This document shows positions 1-6,323 of a stretch of DNA of 6,473 nt, in pieces. The stretch covers positions 1-6,473 of the forward strand of contig JAGQGA010000194.1 in assembly GCA_020432595.1 (NCBI GenBank), in the 5' to 3' direction. The notes beneath the pieces were generated by a model. The model was not told the DNA's origin. It searched no databases and saw nothing but the letters and a program-made list of their open reading frames with translations. How positions within the stretch are numbered: position 1 is the stretch's first letter; each line of letters opens with the position of its first letter. The translations under genes and the position numbers were made by a program. Source of the stretch: Anaerolineales bacterium (GTDB lineage Bacteria; Chloroflexota; Anaerolineae; Promineifilales; Promineifilaceae).

Positions 1-405
1 CCCTATGCTCCGCAGCAGTTTTTTTTTTTTTTTTTCATGCGGGTGCAGGGGGCGGCGTTGGTGGGGTATTTAACGGCCGTTGATGGCGAGGTGTTGGTGA
101 TGCTCCATCCCTATTACGCCCTGCTGGCCGGCAAAGAGCCAGGCGTTCATGTGCAATCCCTCTGGCACGGCCGGCAGCGCGGCCAGCAGCCCTTGCCGCC
201 CGATTTGGTCAGCCGCATCCAACAGCAGCAGTACGCGGTGATTATTTCTGACCAAAGCCTCTATTTTGAGACCGAACCCGCCTTGCTCGCCCTTTTGGAG
301 CAATATTACCAGCCCGAACCGCTTGACCCAACCCTCTCGCCCCCCACCCTCAGCGGCCTTGTGACCCGCCCCCTGCTCATCTACAAACCCAAGCCGCCTA
401 GCTAA
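1..405 (+). CDS. C-terminal tail of a probable membrane glycosyltransferase (5' partial)
   Basis: Open from the window edge in frame 1 to the TAG at 403-405; the first ATG is at 37, but the frame continues upstream, so this is probably the end of a longer gene. The pattern 'ALVGYL.AVDGEVLVMLHPYYALLAGKEP.VH' followed by 'YAVIISDQ' and 'LLEQYY' resembles the soluble domain that follows the last membrane helix in GT39/PMT- or ArnT-like lipid-linked sugar transferases. I recognise this by pattern and have made no alignment. It would act at the cytoplasmic membrane on polyprenyl-linked sugars. No membrane helix is visible in the part present. The T17 run at 19-35 reads as six Phe, just where such proteins have a variable linker, and may be an assembly artefact. 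One AACGGCCGTT palindrome (72-81) is read as LTAVD. It is the only convincing plus-strand gene here. Confidence 0.6.
   Translation, partial: PYAPQQFFFFFFMRVQGAALVGYLTAVDGEVLVMLHPYYALLAGKEPGVHVQSLWHGRQRGQQPLPPDLVSRIQQQQYAVIISDQSLYFETEPALLALLEQYYQPEPLDPTLSPPTLSGLVTRPLLIYKPKPPS
19..35. repeat. T17 homopolymer tract
   Basis: Seventeen consecutive T between 'gcagcag' and 'catgcg'. In the glycosyltransferase frame it reads as six Phe codons counting the final TTC. It is the longest single-base run in the window and sits in otherwise GC-rich coding sequence. It could be a true slippage tract (a phase-variation candidate) or a sequencing or assembly error. Confidence 0.9.
72..81. repeat. AACGGCCGTT iterated palindrome, copy 1
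   Basis: Perfect 10-bp palindrome inside the glycosyltransferase tail, read in the Thr-Ala-Val frame (LTAVD). It lies between two family-like blocks (ALVGYL and DGEVLV), so it appears to be tolerated as a conservative loop sequence. Confidence 0.9.
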
Positions 406-428
406 TCAGCTTGCCACCATCAATTGTC

Positions 429-448
429 ATACCCGCGAAAGCGGGTAT
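429..448. repeat. REP-like hairpin with GAAA tetraloop
   Basis: An 8-bp perfect stem (atacccgc / gcgggtat) closes a GAAA loop at 437-440, flanked by 'gtc' and 'cca'. The 'CCCGCGAAAGCGGGTATCCA' form is a widely distributed intergenic repeat found in many bacterial phyla. It starts 24 bp after the glycosyltransferase stop, so it could also act as a 3' mRNA-stabilising or attenuating hairpin. No T-tract follows it, so it is not a classical intrinsic terminator. Confidence 0.75.
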
Positions 449-610
449 CCATGCCGATGCTGAAGATGGACTCCCGCTGAGCGTGCTGAACACGAAAAAC
501 AATCGTCACGGCAAAACCGAACATCAATAACGGGTCGCTTTTGTCTATCAAGAACCGGCCACCAAGAAGAACTTCGTTTTCCCATCTAGTTAACAATGAG
601 GCAGTTTCAT
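449..610. other. Intergenic, no gene recognised
   Basis: Between the REP-like hairpin and the transposase relic. Minus-strand translation gives a short open stretch, but no recognisable motif and no start signal. It is probably degraded sequence at the distal end of the transposon scar. It contains no AACGGCCGTT copy. Confidence 0.5.
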
Positions 611-1281
611 TTACACAAAATACTTGACATTCTCATACTGTCGCCATTTGCGTGGGTCTGTCTCACGCAAAGCCAACTTGCTCTCTTTCAGTTTAACACC
701 CGCTTTTGGCAGCTCTTGTGCCAGTTCCTCTAAATCGGCTGGCTTCCAGAGCTGAAAGCGAATTGGATATCGGTTTGCTTATCGCTATAGTGCAGGCTCA
801 CGAGATTATGCGCCCACACATATCGATTCTCGACATGATCCCACAACTTGGCTATCTTCTCAAATGCCTGACCATAGTGCGTCAGCAAGGTGTCATCTAG
901 GCTCAAGACCCCTTTGCTTGGTTTGATTCGCGCACCAGGGATACTATACTCAAATTTGAATGAAACCTATGATTTTTTGCCTAACAGGTGCGAAAAAAAC
1001 CATAGGTTTCAAATTGCACGGAGTATAGACATCATCGCTAAACGCGCCTCATTGAGTTCGCTCAATGAAAAGGGGCTATTGGTCAACAACCGATTCAGGT
1101 TGCTTTGCGTCCGTTTTTCGCTGATAAATAGCTGGTTGATCCCGCTGATCGTTTTGTTTTCACCCACGAGCAGCCCGCTGATGTATCGTTTGAATTGGAT
1201 AAACGCCTCAGCGGAGAAAACGGGTTCAAAAAAGTGAGCATAATGCTCGACAATCGCTGGAAATTCAACAAGCGGAACCAT
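611..1281 (-). pseudogene. Decayed DDE transposase (IS4/IS701-like), interrupted, frameshifted and truncated
   Basis: The start ATG at 1281-1279 is preceded by AGGTGA (1290-1285). The N-terminal part reads 'VEFPAIVEHYAHFFEPVFS' and 'QFKRYISGLLVGENKT' and runs to a TGA at 1011-1009 that lies in an inserted element (944-1028). Beyond the insert the same frame continues as 'KPSKGVLSLDDTLLTHYGQ' and 'WDHVENRYVWAHNLVSLHY'. The DD pair (897-892) fits the first catalytic Asp of a DDE transposase. Near 768 one base is missing: supplying a T restores 'DYPIRFQLWKPADLEEL', which continues as 'KLKESKLALRETDPRKWRQY' to a TAA at 613-611. The regions that should carry the remaining D and E catalytic residues are gone. 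The family assignment is by motif memory. The coding relic is clear; the exact IS family is less certain. It cannot be active. Confidence 0.8.
944..1028. mobile_element. 85-bp inverted-repeat (MITE-like) insertion inside the transposase
   Basis: Both ends carry the same 8 bp inverted (ctatactc 944-951, gagtatag 1021-1028). Further in, tgaaacctatg (961-971) pairs perfectly with cataggtttca (1001-1011), followed by T6 (973-978) against an A7 run (993-999). The left arm has about four extra bases (a repeated GAAT) relative to the right. The element encodes nothing. It separates two transposase segments that lie in the same frame, so its net length is a multiple of three (removing 944-1027 rejoins them as MMSIPGARIKP). 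TA-rich flanks fit insertion at TA, but the exact target duplication is unclear. Confidence 0.6.
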
Positions 1282-1485
1282 GTTTCACCTCTGGCTCCCT
1301 TGTTTTTCTCAACAGTATACCCCGCTTGTAGCCTGTTGGGTGCTTTTCTTTATCTATTCAATTGGTAAGGTTCTGCTTTCGGTCTGTTTACCCCGAATGG
1401 CTACCTAACTTAATGATGCCAAAGTCGAGTTAAATCCTGCTAAAACCGGTTCATCCTGTCTGAAAATTATCTGCTGCTTGCTAGT
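1282..1485. other. Intergenic between lipoprotein stop and transposase relic
   Basis: This holds the transposase ribosome-binding site (AGGTGA, 1290-1285) and probably the outer end of the old insertion sequence, but I cannot locate its terminal inverted repeat because the partner end is lost. No gene, tRNA or convincing terminator is seen. It contains no AACGGCCGTT copy. Confidence 0.5.
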
Positions 1486-2538
1486 CTATGGTATCCAAGT
1501 GAGCATGGCTCCAGCTGAGGTTTCTAGTAATTTTTGTAGTTTGCTGCCGTCGGGGTTTATGGTGTAGAGGCCGGTTTGGCTGGCGAAGGCGATGTGGGAG
1601 CCATCGGGGGAGAAGCCACCGTATAACCCGGCTTCGTTGATGTGGCTGATTTGTTCGGGGGAGCCACCGCTGACGGGAATGCGCCACCAGTCGGAGGGGA
1701 CACTATGGGCGGTTACTGTCTTTACTCCTAACAGCCTGTCCCACCCATTTGACTGCGGCAGTGGTACGGCACTGAAGTAGAGCCATTGGCCGTCGGGCGA
1801 GAAGAAGGGCGCGTCCATGTCGGCAAAGTCTTCTTGGGTAACAAGCGTGCGCGGGTTGCTGCCGTCGGCTTCGCTGACGACCAGTTCGCGGGTGAAGGCT
1901 TCGAGGTTGACTAGGATGTAGGCTAATAAACGGCCGTTTGGCGATACCCGACCCCAAATCCCATTTTTCGCCACCACCGCACTTTCCCCACTTTGCCGGT
2001 CAAACCGCTCCAGCGTGGTGGTGAAGGGGGCGTTGTTTTGCTGCACAACGTGGGAGTAGTAGATAAAACGGCCGTCGTCTGTCCAATCGGGGTAAAAAAA
2101 GATTTCGCCCGCTTGCTGAGACTCAATAAGAAGGCGGGGTGTGGTGTCGCCGTTAGTAAGCAGGTAAAGCTGGGTAAAGCCTAGCTGCACTTCGCCATCG
2201 GGCGGGGGCGGGGCGTAGGCCAAAACAAATTCGCTGCCGTCGGGGTTGCTGTCAGCATGGGAAAGCCAGCTGTTGGTGAGGGGGATAAAGAGAGTTTCGA
2301 TTTCATTGCTGTCTAAATTAAACCGGGCGAGGGTTTGCGTGCCGGGGGCAATTTGCATGAAGAGTAGGGCGTTGGCGGGGGTGGAAACGGCCGTTTCTTC
2401 CATGTCCGCTGCTGGTTTAGTGGGAGTAACGGGGGTGGCTGTGGAGTTACTGGGGGCAGGAACGGCCGTTTCCACAGCCGTTTCTCCACCACAGGCTACC
2501 AACAGGATGCAGGCAAGTACGAATAGCTGTGTTTTCAT
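1486..2538 (-). CDS. TolB/PD40-type beta-propeller lipoprotein
   Basis: 350 aa from the ATG at 2538. The signal peptide has a lysine, a hydrophobic core and the lipobox LVAC with Cys16, so the protein should be lipid-anchored on the outer face of the membrane. Residues 17-60 are a Thr/Pro/Ala-rich linker. Propeller-type repeats follow: 'YPDWTDDGRFIYYSH', 'GRVSPNGRLLAYI', 'PFFSPDGQWLYFSA' and 'GGFSPDGSHIAFAS', the [SW]PDG-x-x-[IL]-x-[YF] signature of PD40/WD40-like blades. This fold usually binds partners or polysaccharide; no catalytic motif is visible. A frame extension up to 2637 exists, but it runs through an intergenic repeat and would bury the signal peptide, so the 2538 start is preferred. 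Three perfect ACGGCCGT decamers lie in the gene, two of them in the linker (giving ETAV), plus an off-consensus ACGGCCGTC at 2067-2076. Specific substrate unknown. Confidence 0.8.
   Translation of the reverse strand: MKTQLFVLACILLVACGGETAVETAVPAPSNSTATPVTPTKPAADMEETAVSTPANALLFMQIAPGTQTLARFNLDSNEIETLFIPLTNSWLSHADSNPDGSEFVLAYAPPPPDGEVQLGFTQLYLLTNGDTTPRLLIESQQAGEIFFYPDWTDDGRFIYYSHVVQQNNAPFTTTLERFDRQSGESAVVAKNGIWGRVSPNGRLLAYILVNLEAFTRELVVSEADGSNPRTLVTQEDFADMDAPFFSPDGQWLYFSAVPLPQSNGWDRLLGVKTVTAHSVPSDWWRIPVSGGSPEQISHINEAGLYGGFSPDGSHIAFASQTGLYTINPDGSKLQKLLETSAGAMLTWIP
1929..1938. repeat. AACGGCCGTT iterated palindrome, copy 2
   Basis: Perfect copy inside the beta-propeller lipoprotein, read in the Asn-Gly-Arg frame (SPNGRLLAYI). 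Here it supplies the turn of a propeller repeat, in place of the SPDG seen in the other blades. Confidence 0.9.
2384..2397. repeat. AACGGCCGTT iterated palindrome, copy 3 (14-bp extended form)
   Basis: Perfect 14-bp palindrome gaaacggccgtttc in the linker of the lipoprotein, read as EETAVST. It is the same extended form as the copy at 6106-6119 in the SDR gene. Confidence 0.9.
2461..2485. repeat. AACGGCCGTT copy 4 plus adjacent degenerate copy
   Basis: A perfect AACGGCCGTT (2461-2470) is followed 5 bp later by a near copy with one core change (agccgtttc, 2476-2484). On the minus strand they read as a tandem ETAV-ETAV directly after the lipidated Cys-Gly-Gly. It looks like local expansion of the element in a low-constraint linker. 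Confidence 0.8.
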
Positions 2539-2544
2539 GGGGCA

Positions 2545-2550
2545 ATTGTA
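2545..2550 (-). promoter_or_regulatory. Candidate -10 (TACAAT) for leaderless start of the lipoprotein at 2538
   Basis: TACAAT on the minus strand ends exactly 6 bases (TGCCCC) before the ATG, so transcription would begin at or next to the start codon. No Shine-Dalgarno lies upstream. The -35 is weak. The geometry matches the site before the radical SAM gene. Confidence 0.45.
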
Positions 2551-2566
2551 GCATGGTACGAAACAA

Positions 2567-2634
2567 AAATGGGATGCAGATTGACCTGATTTTGACGATG
2601 GATCAGGCGTATCAGGCTTATCTGCGTCCCATTT
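2567..2634 (-). terminator. Long hairpin repeat after the radical SAM gene, likely terminator
   Basis: A 14-bp stem (aaatgggatgcaga 2567-2580 with tctgcgtcccattt 2621-2634, one G-T wobble) encloses inner cctgat/atcagg pairs (2585-2590 with 2602-2607 or 2611-2616). In minus-strand transcription it begins inside the radical SAM stop codon and is followed by TTTTTGTTT, as in an intrinsic terminator. The left half resembles 6325-6352 upstream of the SDR start, so it also belongs to an interspersed repeat family. Confidence 0.6.
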
Positions 2635-3845
2635 CAAAGTAGGCGCAATTGATTGGGGTTGGGATTGATTAACGGCCGTTTGCCCCCTAGCAGCACAAAA
2701 GGCGAAAGCCGCCGAATATTTCGCACGCCAATCGCCTGTAAGTCTGTTAGCTCGTGCAGCACGCCGCGCCGCCGCGCCGCCAAAATCGCCGCCGCTCCCT
2801 GTGGCCCAATACCCGATACCCGCAGCAGTTCCCGCCGCTCGGCGCGGTTGAGTTCAATGGGTGTGTGGGTCAGATGCTCCCGCGCCCACGCCAGCTTGGG
2901 GTCTTCGTCCAGCGGCAAATGGCCGCGCTGGGTAAAGGGCATCTCCTCCAAATCAAAGCCATAGTCGCGGAAGAGAAAGGATGCTTGGTAAAGCCGATGT
3001 TCCCGCAGCGGGTCTTCGGCGTGGCGGTTTTCCAGCGGCGTGTCGCGGATGGGGCTGAAGGCGGAGAAGTAGGTGCGCCCCAGCTTGAGCTGGCTGTAGA
3101 GATAGTGGGTGGTGGTGAGAATTTCGAGGTCGGTTTCGTCGGTGCCGCCGACGACAAACTGGGTGACGGATGAGGGCCAACGGCCGTTCCACGTGGAAAA
3201 CGGCCGTTCTGTCTGCCGAATTTCCTCCACCCATTGCAGCGGCCGCAGCAGTTCGGCCACAAACTCCTTGCGCGGAGCCAGTGCTTCCAGCCGCTTGTCG
3301 TTGGGTGCTTCCAAGTTGACAGATAGCCGATCCGCCAGTTCCATTGCCCGCCGCACCTGGTCTTTTTCCGCCCCCGGCATCACTTTCAGGTGCAAAAAGC
3401 CGCGATATTGGTGTTTGTTCCGCAAAATATCGGCCGTGTCCAGCAGCTTGTCCTGCGTTTTCACCCCGCCGCCAATGATGCCGGAGCTAAGAAACAGCCC
3501 ATTGACCATTCCGGCGCGGTACATGTCGTTGACCGTCTGCGCCATTTCTTCTGGTTTGAGGGTGGTGCGGCGGTAGTTGCGGCCGGCGCGGAAGGGGCAG
3601 TAAAAGCAGTTGCGCTCGCAGGCGGTGGTGAGCATGGTTTTGATCATTGGCACGGCTTTGTTACCGACAACGGCTTGGTGGATGCCTAGCGACGGCTTTT
3701 TGCTGCTAGTGTCGCCTTTGGGCAACACCTGACCACAGGGGGCGACGTGGGTGGCTTCATCGAGCAGGGGGCGGGGGCTGACTTCTTCGGCCGGCTCCAA
3801 GTGCATGTGGGTGGCGATCTCTTCAAGCTTGATGATCGTTTCCAT
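2634..3845 (-). CDS. Radical SAM protein with C-terminal helix-hairpin-helix domain (COG4277-like)
   Basis: 403 aa from the ATG at 3845. The Cx3Cx2C motif 'TTACERNCFYCPFRAG' (Cys76, 80, 83) would hold the 4Fe-4S cluster that cleaves S-adenosylmethionine. Later blocks 'FLHLKVMPGAE', 'LSVNLEAPND' and 'TQFVVGGTDETD' fit the barrel core. The C-terminus ('LLRVSGIGPQGAAAILAARR' and 'LTDLQAIGVRNIRRLSPFVL') is a tandem helix-hairpin-helix DNA-binding domain. The combination matches the 'DNA-binding radical SAM/HhH' group, thought to act in DNA or nucleic-acid modification or repair; the substrate is unknown. The uracil-DNA-glycosylase-like partner often found beside the related rSAM family is not in this window. 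An in-frame ATG at 3899 exists, but a TATAAT hexamer six bases before 3845 favours the shorter form. Three perfect AACGGCCGTT copies lie in the gene. Confidence 0.85.
   Translation of the reverse strand: METIIKLEEIATHMHLEPAEEVSPRPLLDEATHVAPCGQVLPKGDTSSKKPSLGIHQAVVGNKAVPMIKTMLTTACERNCFYCPFRAGRNYRRTTLKPEEMAQTVNDMYRAGMVNGLFLSSGIIGGGVKTQDKLLDTADILRNKHQYRGFLHLKVMPGAEKDQVRRAMELADRLSVNLEAPNDKRLEALAPRKEFVAELLRPLQWVEEIRQTERPFSTWNGRWPSSVTQFVVGGTDETDLEILTTTHYLYSQLKLGRTYFSAFSPIRDTPLENRHAEDPLREHRLYQASFLFRDYGFDLEEMPFTQRGHLPLDEDPKLAWAREHLTHTPIELNRAERRELLRVSGIGPQGAAAILAARRRGVLHELTDLQAIGVRNIRRLSPFVLLGGKRPLINPNPNQLRLL
2671..2680. repeat. AACGGCCGTT iterated palindrome, copy 5
   Basis: Perfect copy near the 3' end of the radical SAM gene, read in the Arg-Pro frame (GGKRPLIN). 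It lies just past the helix-hairpin-helix domain, in the short tail. Confidence 0.9.
3179..3208. repeat. Compound palindrome: two AACGGCCGTT copies flanking TTCCACGTGGAA
   Basis: Copies at 3179-3188 and 3199-3208 flank and overlap a perfect 12-bp palindrome (3187-3198). The whole 30 bp can fold as one inverted repeat with a 2-base bulge. On the minus strand it reads ERPFSTWNGR within the radical SAM protein, using two different frames of the same palindrome (RP and NGR). It is 30 bp, exactly 10 codons, just before the conserved-looking 'TQFVVGG' block, so it looks like an in-frame insertion in a loop. Confidence 0.8.
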
Positions 3846-3851
3846 GCCAGA

Positions 3852-3880
3852 ATTATAGAACATTTGTTTGTGATTGGGAA
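3852..3880 (-). promoter_or_regulatory. Promoter of the radical SAM gene (TTCCCA-17-TATAAT), leaderless geometry
   Basis: Minus strand: -35 TTCCCA (3880-3875, four of six consensus bases), 17-bp spacer, perfect -10 TATAAT (3857-3852), then six bases (TCTGGC) to the ATG at 3845. Transcription would start about at the A of the ATG, giving a leaderless mRNA. No Shine-Dalgarno is present. This decides the choice of start. Confidence 0.65.
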
Positions 3881-3973
3881 GGGTTTTGGCGTGCAGCACA
3901 ACACTCTATTTTGCGTTGTTATACACCCTCATGAGCGTAAGGCGGATTCAGATAGGTTTTGCCTCAGCCTGCA

Positions 3974-5194
3974 TTATTGCCATAATGATCCTTCATGCGT
4001 TAGTAGATAAATATTCCAATCCGCTTCGGGGCTTTCTATTGATGAGCTTAAATCGGAACCTCTGCCACTGACTTGACCTGATTGAACATAGATAAAATAA
4101 GTGTTATCGTGGTACAACAAATTGGCTGCCCAGATGAAAGGGCCAACATTTTCTCCACTGGCAACAGGTTCATCTGAACGTTTCCAGTTGATTCTGTCTG
4201 AACTTACGGCAATGCCGTATGGCCCGTGTGCGCCCACTTTGTAGCTACGTGAATACAACATGACCCAGCCATCTGGGGTTAGAATAACCCGAGGATCGAT
4301 CATGAATGCATTGTCCCAAGACCCGCTTTCGCCACTTCTAGTAAAAATGGGTTCCTCGTTCTTTGTCCACTCGATGCCATCTGGGGACGTAGCCATACCA
4401 ATAGCTGCTTGTCGTTCCGAGTAACCAGTATAATACATGACGTATTCAGTTTCGGTACGCACAACGCTAGGATTTTGAACACAAAACGAATCCCATGTGC
4501 CTTGTTTCCCAGCCGTTAACACCATTTTGTCATCCGCTACCCAGGGGCCGGTTGGTGCTGGCGCTGTAGCACGCCCAATACTGCCTTGGGTTATTGCTTC
4601 CCATCCTACTGGGTTGTCGACGGTGTAAAAATACAGTACCCATGTGCCATCCTCTTCAACGAGAACACTGGAAACATAGGCGGTATAGAGAGCATTTAGT
4701 GCTTCGCCTAAAAAAAGAGGTTCATCTGTAGCCCGTGTCCAATTACGGCCGTCTGGAGACGTTGAGTAAAAGGTGTGTACTTGAGCAGGCCACCATTCTA
4801 ATTCGTTGTGGAACATGTGAAATAAGTTGTCATGATAGACAACGGCACCTGGAAATGCTAAATGCATAGGCACTTCTGCCGAATCATTATGATAAATGAC
4901 TGGTTCTTCACTAAACAACGTAAACAGATCAGTGCTGGGTATTCTGTTTGAATCAGGTTCGAGTGGTATCGTTGGTTCGGGTGTTATGGTTGGCGATGGT
5001 TCAGTCGGTGGGGGTTGAGTAGGCGGAACGGCCGTTTCTATTGGCAGAACGGCTATGTTTTCTGCTTCAACAGGAGTTTCTTTGACAATGGCACTCGTTT
5101 CTGGATCAATTTCTGAAATTTCTGGTGCGGCTTGGCAACTTATTAAGACCAACCCAAAAGCCAGAGCAATTGGAATCAGCCTGTATTTTTTCAT
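3974..5194 (-). CDS. Beta-propeller lipoprotein resembling glycoside hydrolase GH32/43/68/130 superfamily
   Basis: 406 aa. The start is fixed by AGGAGG five bases before the ATG. A lipoprotein signal (MKKYR, hydrophobic core, LISC with Cys20) is followed by a Thr/Pro/Glu-rich linker to about residue 87. The mature domain carries recurring blades ending in '[AS]tSpDGxxWtxxxEPxf': about residues 143-161, 268-284 and 328-345, with a variant near 208-222 ('RATAPAPTGPW'). Such repeats typify five-bladed propellers of levansucrase, invertase, arabinanase and mannoside phosphorylase type. Conserved-looking 'FPGAVVYHDNLFHMFHN' and 'DNAFMIDPRVI' could line the central pocket, but I cannot assign catalytic acids, so it may be an enzyme or only a sugar-binding protein. 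It would be tethered outside the cell. Base composition looks more AT-rich than its neighbours and it carries only one full AACGGCCGTT (in the linker, ETAV), plus an octamer ACGGCCGT at 4745-4752, hinting at different origin or age. Confidence 0.75.
   Translation of the reverse strand: MKKYRLIPIALAFGLVLISCQAAPEISEIDPETSAIVKETPVEAENIAVLPIETAVPPTQPPPTEPSPTITPEPTIPLEPDSNRIPSTDLFTLFSEEPVIYHNDSAEVPMHLAFPGAVVYHDNLFHMFHNELEWWPAQVHTFYSTSPDGRNWTRATDEPLFLGEALNALYTAYVSSVLVEEDGTWVLYFYTVDNPVGWEAITQGSIGRATAPAPTGPWVADDKMVLTAGKQGTWDSFCVQNPSVVRTETEYVMYYTGYSERQAAIGMATSPDGIEWTKNEEPIFTRSGESGSWDNAFMIDPRVILTPDGWVMLYSRSYKVGAHGPYGIAVSSDRINWKRSDEPVASGENVGPFIWAANLLYHDNTYFIYVQSGQVSGRGSDLSSSIESPEADWNIYLLTHEGSLWQ
5027..5036. 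repeat. AACGGCCGTT iterated palindrome, copy 8
   Basis: Perfect copy in the Pro/Thr linker of the GH-like lipoprotein, read as IETAVPPT, the same ETAV reading as the copies in the other lipoprotein's linker. Confidence 0.9.
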
Positions 5195-5199
5195 CTCAA

Positions 5200-5205
5200 C
5201 CTCCT
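5200..5205 (-). promoter_or_regulatory. Strong ribosome-binding site (AGGAGG) of the GH-like lipoprotein
   Basis: AGGAGG within AAAAGGAGG on the minus strand, with five bases (TTGAG) to the ATG at 5194. It fixes the start and contrasts with the SD-less starts at 2538 and 3845. Confidence 0.85.
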
Positions 5206-5254
5206 TTTAAATTTTTGTGGTTCGTCAATTGCACGCACGTTATTAGGCGATGCC

Positions 5255-5260
5255 AGTATA
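5255..5260 (-). promoter_or_regulatory. Candidate -10 (TATACT) of the GH-like lipoprotein
   Basis: TATACT on the minus strand, about 60 bases upstream of the ATG, leaving a leader that carries the AGGAGG. The -35 is poor (TATCAC at 17-bp spacing). A one-base variant of the iterated palindrome, AACGGTCGTT (5267-5276), occupies the spacer. Confidence 0.35.
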
Positions 5261-5282
5261 GAGAGAAACGGTCGTTTGTGAT

Positions 5283-5320
5283 AGTGACAAAGATCATTGC
5301 CTTATGCACCAATTGTCACT
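5283..5320. repeat. Inverted repeat agtgacaa...ttgtcact
   Basis: Two 8-bp arms (5283-5290 and 5313-5320) are separated by 22 bases, just upstream of the candidate promoter of the GH-like lipoprotein. The position would suit an operator or a hairpin; no T-tract follows on either strand. It is one of the few structured items in the 355-bp gap 5195-5549. Confidence 0.4.
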
Positions 5321-5367
5321 GGCCTTAATTTTTGGGATGAGAGGTGATGCTCAAATAAGCCACGGAG

Positions 5368-5451
5368 ATGCGGCAATTTATAACCTTGGCTGATTTGCTG
5401 GCCTTTTTAGCTGCGGAAATGGCGAATCACGACACAATGGCAGAACAATAA
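5368..5451 (+). CDS. Possible 27-aa small ORF, or remnant
   Basis: ATG at 5368 with 'cggag' two bases before it, reading MRQFITLADLLAFLAAEMAN and seven more residues to a TAA. The peptide would be an amphipathic or hydrophobic helix. After the stop, the next frame stays open with a charged stretch (DDEQQAKQRRSIIRERK), so this may be the frameshifted remains of one slightly longer gene. It is the only plus-strand coding candidate in the 5195-5549 gap. No family is recognised and chance is a real alternative. Confidence 0.2.
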   Translation: MRQFITLADLLAFLAAEMANHDTMAEQ

Positions 5452-5518
5452 GGGGGGCTGACGATGAACAACAGGCGAAGCAACGTAGATCAATTATCAG
5501 GGAACGGAAACATAGGGA

Positions 5519-5539
5519 GGGAAAAACGGCCGTTTTCCC
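5519..5539 (-). terminator. Hairpin after the SDR gene built on an AACGGCCGTT copy
   Basis: ggg-aaaaa-cgg / ccg-tttt-ccc forms a stem with one bulged A around the perfect AACGGCCGTT at 5525-5534. It lies about 10 bases past the SDR stop. No T-run follows on the minus strand, so it may act as a 3'-end stabiliser rather than a true intrinsic terminator. It is the only perfect copy of the palindrome that is not inside a gene. Confidence 0.4.
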
Positions 5540-5549
5540 CTCTACCTCC

Positions 5550-6323
5550 CTACACCCCCATCCCAAACCGCGCCACCAACGCCTGCACTGGCTCATCATC
5601 CCAGCCCATAAACTGCCCACTCCACTCGGCCGGGGCGTGAAGTGCTAGAATTGCCAGTGCCATGCCCGGTGTTTCTGGCGGTAGAAGCTGACCTTTTTCA
5701 TGAAAACCAACAAAGCGGGCATGGGCATCGGCCGGCATCCCGACGGCGCCGTCGCGGCGGATGGTGGCCTGCATGTTGGTATCTACAATGCCGGGGCGCA
5801 CAGAAACGGCCGTTATTCCCCGCTCCTCTACCGACAGCACATGGTTAAACTGGTTCAACGCCCCCTTTGCCACGCAGTACGCCCCCCACCCTGGAATTGA
5901 TCCCGTGGCCGCGCCGCTAGAAACGTTGATGACGCGGCCGTTGGTGGCTCGCAAATGGGGCAGGGCTGCCTGCGTCAGCATCATTGGCCCCAGTACATTG
6001 ACCCGCCAATTGTGCTCCCACGCTTCTGGTGGGGTGTCGGCAATCGCCCCTACTGGTTCAATGATGCCTGCGTTGTTGACCACTGCATCAATGCGGCCAA
6101 AGTGAGAAACGGCCGTTTCTACCAACGCCGCACAATCGTCCTGATTCGCTACGCTGCCCGAAACCGCCACTGCTTGTGCCCCAATTTTCGTTGCTACTGC
6201 TTGCAACTCGATTTCTGAGCGAGCGTTCAAAACAACATTGGCACCTAATTGCGCCGCAGCGCGGCCAATTGCCGCCCCAATTCCCCGCGATGCTCCAGTC
6301 ACAATGATAGTTGGTTTTGTCAT
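5550..6323 (-). CDS. SDR-family NAD(P)H oxidoreductase, benzil reductase/Irc24-like
   Basis: 257 aa, normal length for a classical short-chain dehydrogenase/reductase. Visible motifs: cofactor-binding TGASRGIG (residues 9-16), NNAG (83-86), Asn109, catalytic Ser136, Tyr149 and Lys153 in the YxxxK arrangement (AYCVAK), and the RPGIVDT segment (176-182). The Arg35-Ser36 that follows the second strand is compatible with NADPH preference. 'VINVSSGAAT', 'GWGAYCVAKGALNQFN' and 'AVSVRPGIVDTNMQ' resemble the benzil reductase / yeast Irc24 and sepiapterin-reductase-like branch, which reduces carbonyls in the cytosol; the physiological substrate is unknown. The ATG has no Shine-Dalgarno. The unknown partial gene 58 bp upstream could share its transcript. 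Two AACGGCCGTT copies fall at VETAVSH and GITAVSV, outside the catalytic motifs. Confidence 0.9.
   Translation of the reverse strand: MTKPTIIVTGASRGIGAAIGRAAAQLGANVVLNARSEIELQAVATKIGAQAVAVSGSVANQDDCAALVETAVSHFGRIDAVVNNAGIIEPVGAIADTPPEAWEHNWRVNVLGPMMLTQAALPHLRATNGRVINVSSGAATGSIPGWGAYCVAKGALNQFNHVLSVEERGITAVSVRPGIVDTNMQATIRRDGAVGMPADAHARFVGFHEKGQLLPPETPGMALAILALHAPAEWSGQFMGWDDEPVQALVARFGMGV
5805..5814. repeat. AACGGCCGTT iterated palindrome, copy 10
   Basis: Perfect copy in the SDR gene, read as GITAVSVRPG. Here the encoded Thr-Ala-Val forms a core strand leading to the PG motif, so the palindrome is part of native structure and not a loop insertion. Confidence 0.9.
6106..6119. repeat. AACGGCCGTT iterated palindrome, copy 11 (14-bp extended form)
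   Basis: Perfect palindrome gaaacggccgtttc in the SDR gene, read as VETAVSHFGRID, in the surface helix before the NNAG strand. Confidence 0.9.

Follow-up and report, generated by a model that had tools for sequence, protein, structure and literature searches.

To our knowledge, it is still open why cyanobacterial genomes hold thousands of copies of HIP1, a highly iterated palindrome (HIP). As described by Elhai (2015; PMC4390886), HIP1 (GCGATCGC) and the alternate HIPs are dominant palindromes with a rigid, GC-rich core, present at about 500–2500 copies per Mb and swapped in some lineages; matching enzymes and a repair ratchet are described there for the alternate HIPs, and a few HIP1 genomes lack an enzyme for CGATCG. 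Work of Xu, Lawrence and Durand (2018) is cited in PMC6604393 in support of the maintenance of HIP1 by selection. The stretch analyzed here (the window: positions 1 to 6,473 of contig JAGQGA010000194.1 from an Anaerolineales bacterium of the Chloroflexota) contains 11 exact copies of the palindromic 10-mer AACGGCCGTT, and this motif and its relatives resemble HIP1 as described in that account (PMC4390886) in forming a single dominant palindrome with a rigid core, a similar density and replacement between lineages. They differ from HIP1 in sequence (the unit being ACGGCCGT), in coming from Chloroflexota records and in taking 6-, 8- and 10-bp forms across the clade, and from most published HIPs in that neither of the two methyltransferase families followed (C5 and N4/N6) matches in all carriers.

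The Chloroflexota palindrome is a HIP-type element by its abundance (it is the most over-represented palindrome genome-wide), its density, its core rigidity (one-off variants are concentrated at the outermost bases) and its conservation as DNA. We consider it likely that a clade-specific HIP, with the unit ACGGCCGT on a CGGCCG core, takes the form AACGGCCGTT locally, and that a host factor reads it; this estimate overlaps with the odds given below to methylation. Having a HIP clade in a second phylum offers a natural replicate of the cyanobacterial case, and the features that the two have in common (a palindrome, a rigid core, about 1–2 copies per kb, conservation as DNA and lineage swaps) suggest that a general process is at work. 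The main text of PMC4390886 makes no mention of Chloroflex, CGGCCG or phage, and no report of HIPs in Chloroflexota was found in the literature searched, most subscription papers lying outside it. Elsewhere in print, ACGGCCGT or AACGGCCGTT appears in a Thermus TetR site and in a list of absent words. The Thermus TetR-family regulator TTHA0973 binds similar palindromes, and one listed promoter match begins with AACGGCCGTT; its few promoter sites, with the consensus AACnAACGTTnGTT, are unlike a genome-wide motif (PMC6651687).

Copies in the window

All 11 decamers reported by an earlier, sequence-only reading of the window are exact, as are two further octamers, and the reading frames are as it gave them, ten of the 11 copies being genic according to the open reading frames (ORFs). 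The TAV frame is used six times, at 72..81 (in an ORF at 37–405 on the plus strand), 2386..2395 and 2461..2470 (which together form an imperfect inverted repeat), 5027..5036, and 5805..5814 and 6108..6117 (both in a short-chain dehydrogenase gene); the NGR frame is used twice, at 1929..1938 in a PD40 beta-propeller gene and at 3179..3188 in a radical SAM gene, and the RP frame twice, at 2671..2680 in the radical SAM gene and at 3199..3208, which starts 20 bp past the start of the preceding copy. The remaining copy, at 5525..5534, is intergenic and sits within a longer near-palindrome (5517–5542). The octamer ACGGCCGT alone occurs in the DGR frame at 2068..2075, where the 10-mer ends in C, and at 4745..4752 in a glycosidase-like gene, and a one-off relative, AACGGTCGTT, is found in intergenic DNA at 5267..5276.

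These numbers are far above chance. The commonest 8-mer of the window is ACGGCCGT and its commonest 10-mer AACGGCCGTT; with up to one mismatch allowed, there are 13 matches, compared with a mean of 0.27 and a largest value of 3 in 200 dinucleotide shuffles. When the five window genes were shuffled synonymously, with protein and codon usage preserved, 2,000 shuffles gave a mean of 1.26 octamers (maximum 5) against the 12 present, and a mean of 0.31 decamers (maximum 3) against the 10 present.

Abundance in related genomes and phylogenetic spread

Relatives of the window were taken as the best 80 of 84 genome–contig matches to its radical SAM gene, all with Chloroflexota-type record titles, and it is from such relatives that the genome-wide results come. 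Among octamer palindromes, ACGGCCGT ranks first in six of the seven closest loci (60–66% identity) and in none of the other 74 of the 80. Whole-genome counts range from 2,984 to 12,866 in six relatives (G001–G004, G006 and G007), against 46–403 for the reversed word, and are only 14–505 in four further relatives; examples are 12,866 against 64 in the 7.7-Mb genome G003, 6,919 against 46 in G002, and 14,867 against 185 in G370, the most copies in any genome counted. Relative to an order-3 Markov model, the octamer is found 346 times where 13.6 are expected in 180 kb of G244, 250 against 10.4 in 161 kb of G003 and 101 against 2.1 in 100 kb of G006, the excess being 14- to 48-fold across the seven octamer genomes sampled. 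The proposal of a HIP1-like palindrome of different sequence is borne out by these counts, which lie well clear of the Markov expectation and, with thousands of copies per relative genome, are anything but restricted to one contig. Its unit needs amending: AACGGCCGTT is indeed iterated locally, but the general unit in the relatives is the 8-mer ACGGCCGT, the preference for the 10-mer depending on lineage.

At least 0.5 copies of ACGGCCGT per kb were present in 20 of 396 class genomes (drawn evenly), at about 510–2,100 per Mb, within the range of the described HIPs. These 20, together with G002 and G004, make up the 22 genomes referred to here as carriers. In a 400-genome sample of the phylum, only G003 (the query genome) reached 0.5 per kb, the next by count being G045 (646 in 3.6 Mb) and G077 (549 in 5.0 Mb); having drawn no other carrier, this sample informs mainly on the rest of the phylum. 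In a quick tree of a single gene (99 radical SAM proteins with matches of more than 250 residues, fragmentary hits such as that in G224 omitted and G177, G323, G393 and G290 giving no hit), all 18 carrier rows, defined by more than 0.6 octamers per kb of locus and including the window, fall inside one 24-row clade with a Shimodaira–Hasegawa-like approximate likelihood ratio test (SH-aLRT) value of 93. The clade also contains five intermediate rows and G005, and the group nearest to the window mixes the carrier G002 with G214 and G360, which iterate the core only. Within the genomes searched, the motif is thus confined to one Anaerolineae clade; one gain, followed by losses or replacements, is likely, if not proved.

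In that clade the motif occurs genome-wide at about 1–2 per kb, in all codon phases and in intergenic DNA, with near-random spacing. Intervals between sites follow a nearly exponential distribution in G244 and G370 (coefficients of variation of 0.98 and 1.07), with more clumping in G003 (1.39). With ORFs called crudely, densities inside and outside ORFs were 1.97 and 1.54 octamers per kb in G244, 1.40 and 1.58 in G003, 1.14 and 0.55 in G006, and 2.03 and 1.24 in G370. About half of the coding copies in G244 (169 of 317) encode TAV.

Conservation and turnover of sites

Orthologous DNA shows that the octamer is retained far more often than comparable words. Between G244 and G263 (91.6% identity), 57 of 61 sites are intact, compared with 60.8% of control octamers of the same G+C; between G244 and G370 (84.2% identity) the figures are 95 of 107 and 34.5%, and between G244 and G354 (78.1% identity) 20 of 26 and 19.4%. 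Scrambled octamers with the same letters, of which there was a small set, were kept at 69.1% (n = 55), 30.1% (n = 73) and 13.3% (n = 15) in G263, G370 and G354, respectively. Counted in both directions, 66 of 86 sites are intact between G003 and G004 (77.5% identity; controls 21.6%), 48 of 62 between G370 and G354 (controls 18.1%), and four of five in a tiny piece shared by G006 and G398 (controls 6.9%). Ortholog pieces shorter than 400 bp (G244 comparisons) or 300 bp (further pairs), or overlapping better ones, were not counted, and control octamers were omitted if gapped or close to a copy of the motif.

The conserved block has sharp edges. Folded on the palindrome center, divergence between G244 and G370 is 2.4–2.8% at motif positions and 9.8–27.9% at sixteen flanking positions. 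Most of the codons compared also retain their third bases better within the motif than elsewhere: against G370, those of ACG are unchanged in 48 of 50 cases inside and 138 of 212 outside (Fisher P = 3 × 10−6), those of GCC in 46 of 46 and 578 of 753 (P = 1 × 10−5), and those of CGT in 29 of 29 and 62 of 120 (P = 8 × 10−8); against G354, those of ACG are unchanged in 10 of 10 and 26 of 73. In the relatives, then, constraint acts on exactly 8 bp of DNA. Ortholog conservation, this 8-bp edge and third-base retention together support the earlier claim in so far as it places the constraint on DNA and not on protein.

The turnover of sites is mostly a matter of point substitution, not insertion. Alignment gaps at sites number 0 of 121, 2 of 211 and 1 of 52 in the three G244 comparisons, 6 of 86 between G003 and G004 and 0 of 62 between G370 and G354, and most non-shared sites are aligned and substituted; in a three-genome alignment of 11,676 columns, 12 of 24 sites are present in all three genomes and 12 differ.

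Word variants between lineages

The length of the iterated word, and in one case the word itself, changes between lineages. Three genomes are rich in the core with no octamer dominant around it: G161, with 363 copies of CGGCCG in 70.8 kb (expected 45.6 at order 2 and 83.8 at order 3), G360, with 183 in 56 kb (29.8 and 56.5), and G214, with 222 in 65 kb (59.8 and 101.9). G161 has little GGCC other than that within CGGCCG (81 of 444). The carrier G290 (0.51 octamers per kb) is core-rich too, with 205 CGGCCG and 30 octamers in 64 kb. Other genomes lean toward the decamer, AACGGCCGTT accounting for 80 of 101 octamers in G006 and 13 of 19 in G002, and in G244 A flanks are scarce (15 decamers among 346 octamers). 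G005 iterates a different palindrome, TGCCGGCA (37 against 2.3 expected in 29 kb; 3,665 in the whole 4.0-Mb genome), and is nearly without CGGCCG (2 in 29 kb; expected 26.0 at order 2 and 12.6 at order 3).

Among one-off variants, the flank variant TCGGCCGT stands at 3.9× in G244 and 4.4× in G003, compared with 1.9× in the control genome G077, and GCGGCCGT at 1.6× and 2.6× in the same two octamer genomes, yet at 2.5× in the control; core variants, summed by hand, are at about 0.7× in all three alike. A clade with core-only, octamer, decamer, different-palindrome and low-count members is well suited to finding the responsible gene by comparison.

Prophages and viral contigs

Three prophage head and packaging regions, located without use of the motif, contain 7 octamers in 6.5 kb (G354), 5 in 6.0 kb (G177) and 20 in 9.2 kb (G393), or 0.83–2.18 per kb, where 0.3–0.4 copies each are expected. 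The portal loci of G383 (L300–L302; 1.0–2.2 octamers per kb) were not counted as prophage; among four proteins scanned in L300, two match ParB-like families, a third matches a phosphoadenosine phosphosulfate reductase family and the last has no match. The fully masked loci L295 and L311 were left aside. A scan of viral contigs for two close decamers returned 25 stretches, 13 of which have at least 1 octamer per kb, the search being biased toward dense contigs; one of the stretches, L170, carries 23 octamers within 12.5 kb, along with genes for terminase, portal and head protease. Among 82 viral contigs chosen for terminases related to those of G354 (two) and G177 (the best 80 of 108), one, L324, with a terminase 71% identical to that of G177, has at least 0.5 octamers per kb, and 71 have none, including four whose terminases are closer to that of G177 (72–76%). 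The motif thus appears to follow the host and not the phage family.

Two viral contigs, L360 and L361, carry scattered CTCGAG, 33 and 29 times (about 3 per kb against 0.3 expected), possibly another iterated palindrome, in a virus; the two seem related or overlapping, given a common run of spacings. In L158 and L169, both from one viral contig (IMGVR_UViG_3300040801_001003), CGTCGACG occurs 6 and 15 times and ACGGCCGT 6 and 11 times, so that two iterated palindromes are found together.

Methyltransferases and other candidate factors

Neither of the two methyltransferase families that were followed tracks the motif, and the dedicated methyltransferase that the sequence-only reading had suggested is not supported as a general explanation. 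The C5 family PF00145 is absent from 9 of the 22 carriers. Of 34 genomes searched for PF01555 (N4/N6), 30 have a match above the cut-off; the best matches are weak in G002 (5.0 × 10−4), G370 (4.6 × 10−4) and the core-only G360 (4.0 × 10−4), and the core-only G214 has no match. G002, G214 and G370 lack PF00145 as well, so that two carriers, G002 and G370 (the latter with the most copies), have no C5 enzyme and no convincing N4/N6 match. MutL and ComEC are present in G370, so that it is no bare fragment; G002, with no match to MutL, is perhaps a less complete genome. Clustering of 28 PF01555 proteins (the best match per genome) and 35 PF00145 proteins gave no ortholog group that extends across the carriers, other adenine-type families not having been searched and loci L118 and L240, which gave no ORF, being unclustered. 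The largest PF01555 cluster has six members, from five carriers and the low-count G045; and a ten-member C5 (PF00145) cluster shared by the core-rich G161, G290 and G360 includes the low-count G077 too, its one tested member matching the DNA cytosine methylase family PRK10458 (Dcm). The general basis is unlikely to be methylation by one C5 or N4/N6 enzyme common to the carriers, and the methylation model is weakened, in genomes of unstated completeness. With no such enzyme shared, the leading methylation model becomes directly testable in this clade.

Several other candidates were set aside. No C5-type footprint was seen, one-off variants showing no general C-to-T excess. A restriction–modification site would be expected to be avoided or neutral, but this site is strongly enriched, and a mobile or repetitive extragenic palindromic (REP)-like element does not accord with gain mostly by substitution and rare gaps. 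Dnd phosphorothioation targets GGCC contexts in Streptomyces; dndC is over cut-off in 4 of 29 genomes, with weaker or partial matches in four more, which is too few for a factor common to the carriers. As common factors, MutL (26 of 28 genomes searched) and ComEC (27 of 28) do not discriminate carriers by their presence.

Competing explanations

A methylation-dependent HIP seems to us rather unlikely; in it, CGGCCG (or GGCC) would be the mark set by an orphan cytosine methyltransferase, and neighboring words would be ratcheted toward the palindrome through methyl-directed mismatch repair, as proposed for cyanobacteria. The core is a plausible cytosine target that some genomes iterate alone, MutL is found in nearly all genomes searched, most carriers have some N4/N6 enzyme, and the Synechocystis enzyme M.Ssp6803II methylates GGCC to N4-methylcytosine (PMC6560206), a target with the same GGCC center; no modification is known for the Chloroflexota motif. 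Against it stand the carriers without PF00145 or a convincing PF01555 match, the absence of a carrier-wide ortholog cluster, the presence of low-count G077 in the core-rich C5 cluster and the missing C-to-T excess. The repair half of the ratchet could operate here, a methyl signal not being evident. It is also improbable that the motif is a DNA uptake signal, with a competence receptor preferring motif DNA, and uptake and recombination holding it at 1–2 per kb. The uptake sequences of Neisseriaceae and Pasteurellaceae are also short words scattered through the genome at about 1 per kb, a range into which the density here falls, and they are not known to be strict palindromes; near-random spacing and widespread ComEC would fit. 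But G005, G009 and G077, none of them a carrier, have ComEC equally, as do 10 of 14 control genomes, the motif in phage genes is not readily explained, and the varied target lengths and the TGCCGGCA genome would require co-evolution of the receptor. A selfish or mobile palindrome spreading by insertion, another role that had been suggested from the window, is very improbable: the copy number is very high and the starts at 3179 and 3199 are only 20 bp apart, but gaps at orthologous sites are rare and the remaining non-shared sites are aligned with substitutions. That the motif merely follows from base composition, codon usage or amino-acid motifs is scarcely credible, even if the large share of TAV copies might speak for it; the synonymous shuffles, the use of all phases and of non-coding DNA, the third-base retention and the Markov excess all contradict it.

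For a clade-specific HIP read by the host, the process can be outlined as follows. A sequence-specific host factor would recognize the palindrome, and its copies would be kept either by selection on many weak sites or by repair biased toward the palindrome; candidates for this factor are a protein of chromosome maintenance or repair and an unrecognized methyltransferase. Since resident phage DNA bears the motif too, we favor a process that would act in trans on whatever DNA stays in the cell. A more specific version, which we put forward tentatively, is a methylation-independent, sequence-specific DNA maintenance system that conserves, and perhaps writes, the palindrome across the genome and resident phages, with a target of 6, 8 or 10 bp or a different palindrome according to lineage; as far as the searches show, the literature covered describes no such system in any phylum.

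Several points weigh against the host-read HIP. Selection at more than 10,000 sites needs a tiny per-site benefit or biased repair, which the data do not separate; the densities in ORFs (1.14–2.03 per kb) and in non-coding DNA (0.55–1.58 per kb) flag no single genomic role, and no reader protein was found. The window's own genome is outside the set analyzed, and the genomes are mostly metagenome-assembled, with completeness unstated. The SH-aLRT value of the clade is under the tree tool's mark of 95, and the carriers are not one branch within it (4 changes; 43 of 500 label shuffles are as low). G244, G263, G370 and G354 form one close group, the independent comparisons being G003/G004 and the tiny G006/G398 piece, and in the G354 comparison the third bases of GCC fare no better inside the motif (8 of 10) than outside it (163 of 213). 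Two of the three prophage regions offer small counts (5 and 7 copies) and, as prophages sit in the chromosome, such copies alone are no proof of action in trans.

Neighboring genes and other repeats

Four genes of the window were assigned by profile, all on the minus strand: a WD40-like (PD40) beta-propeller protein gene at 1486..2538 (PF07676, 8.9 × 10−15), the radical SAM protein gene used as query for relatives and tree at 2634..3899 (PF04055), a GH43/GH130-like glycosidase gene at 3974..5194 and the short-chain dehydrogenase gene at 5550..6323. The radical SAM protein scores 267 bits against TIGR03916 (putative DNA modification/repair radical SAM protein), under the cut-off of 343.5. A palindrome, TTCCACGTGGAA, lies at 3187–3198 between two copies of the motif, overlapping the end of the first; it resembles a parS site and was found in none of the 317 loci searched.

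The copies are unevenly spread, the interval 82–1928 being without any. On its minus strand, 1009–1281 matches an IS701-like transposase as a remnant (NF033540, 7.3 × 10−6, 25.5 bits, far under cut-off), beside a 94% hairpin at 961–1011; a motif-free interval around such a remnant is what one would expect of recently acquired DNA. In locus L173, REP-like dispersed hairpins (CGTAGTAGGC...GCCTACTAC) at 8998–9052, 11073–11127 and 6520–6585 match several places in G263 and G370, and the copies looked at have no ACGGCCGT inside. In L028, CACGTG occurs 50 times but was not taken for a dispersed iterated palindrome: the 30 spacings shown are all 61–63 bp, and it is probably part of a regular array, with a period of about 62 bp, resembling clustered regularly interspaced short palindromic repeats (CRISPR).

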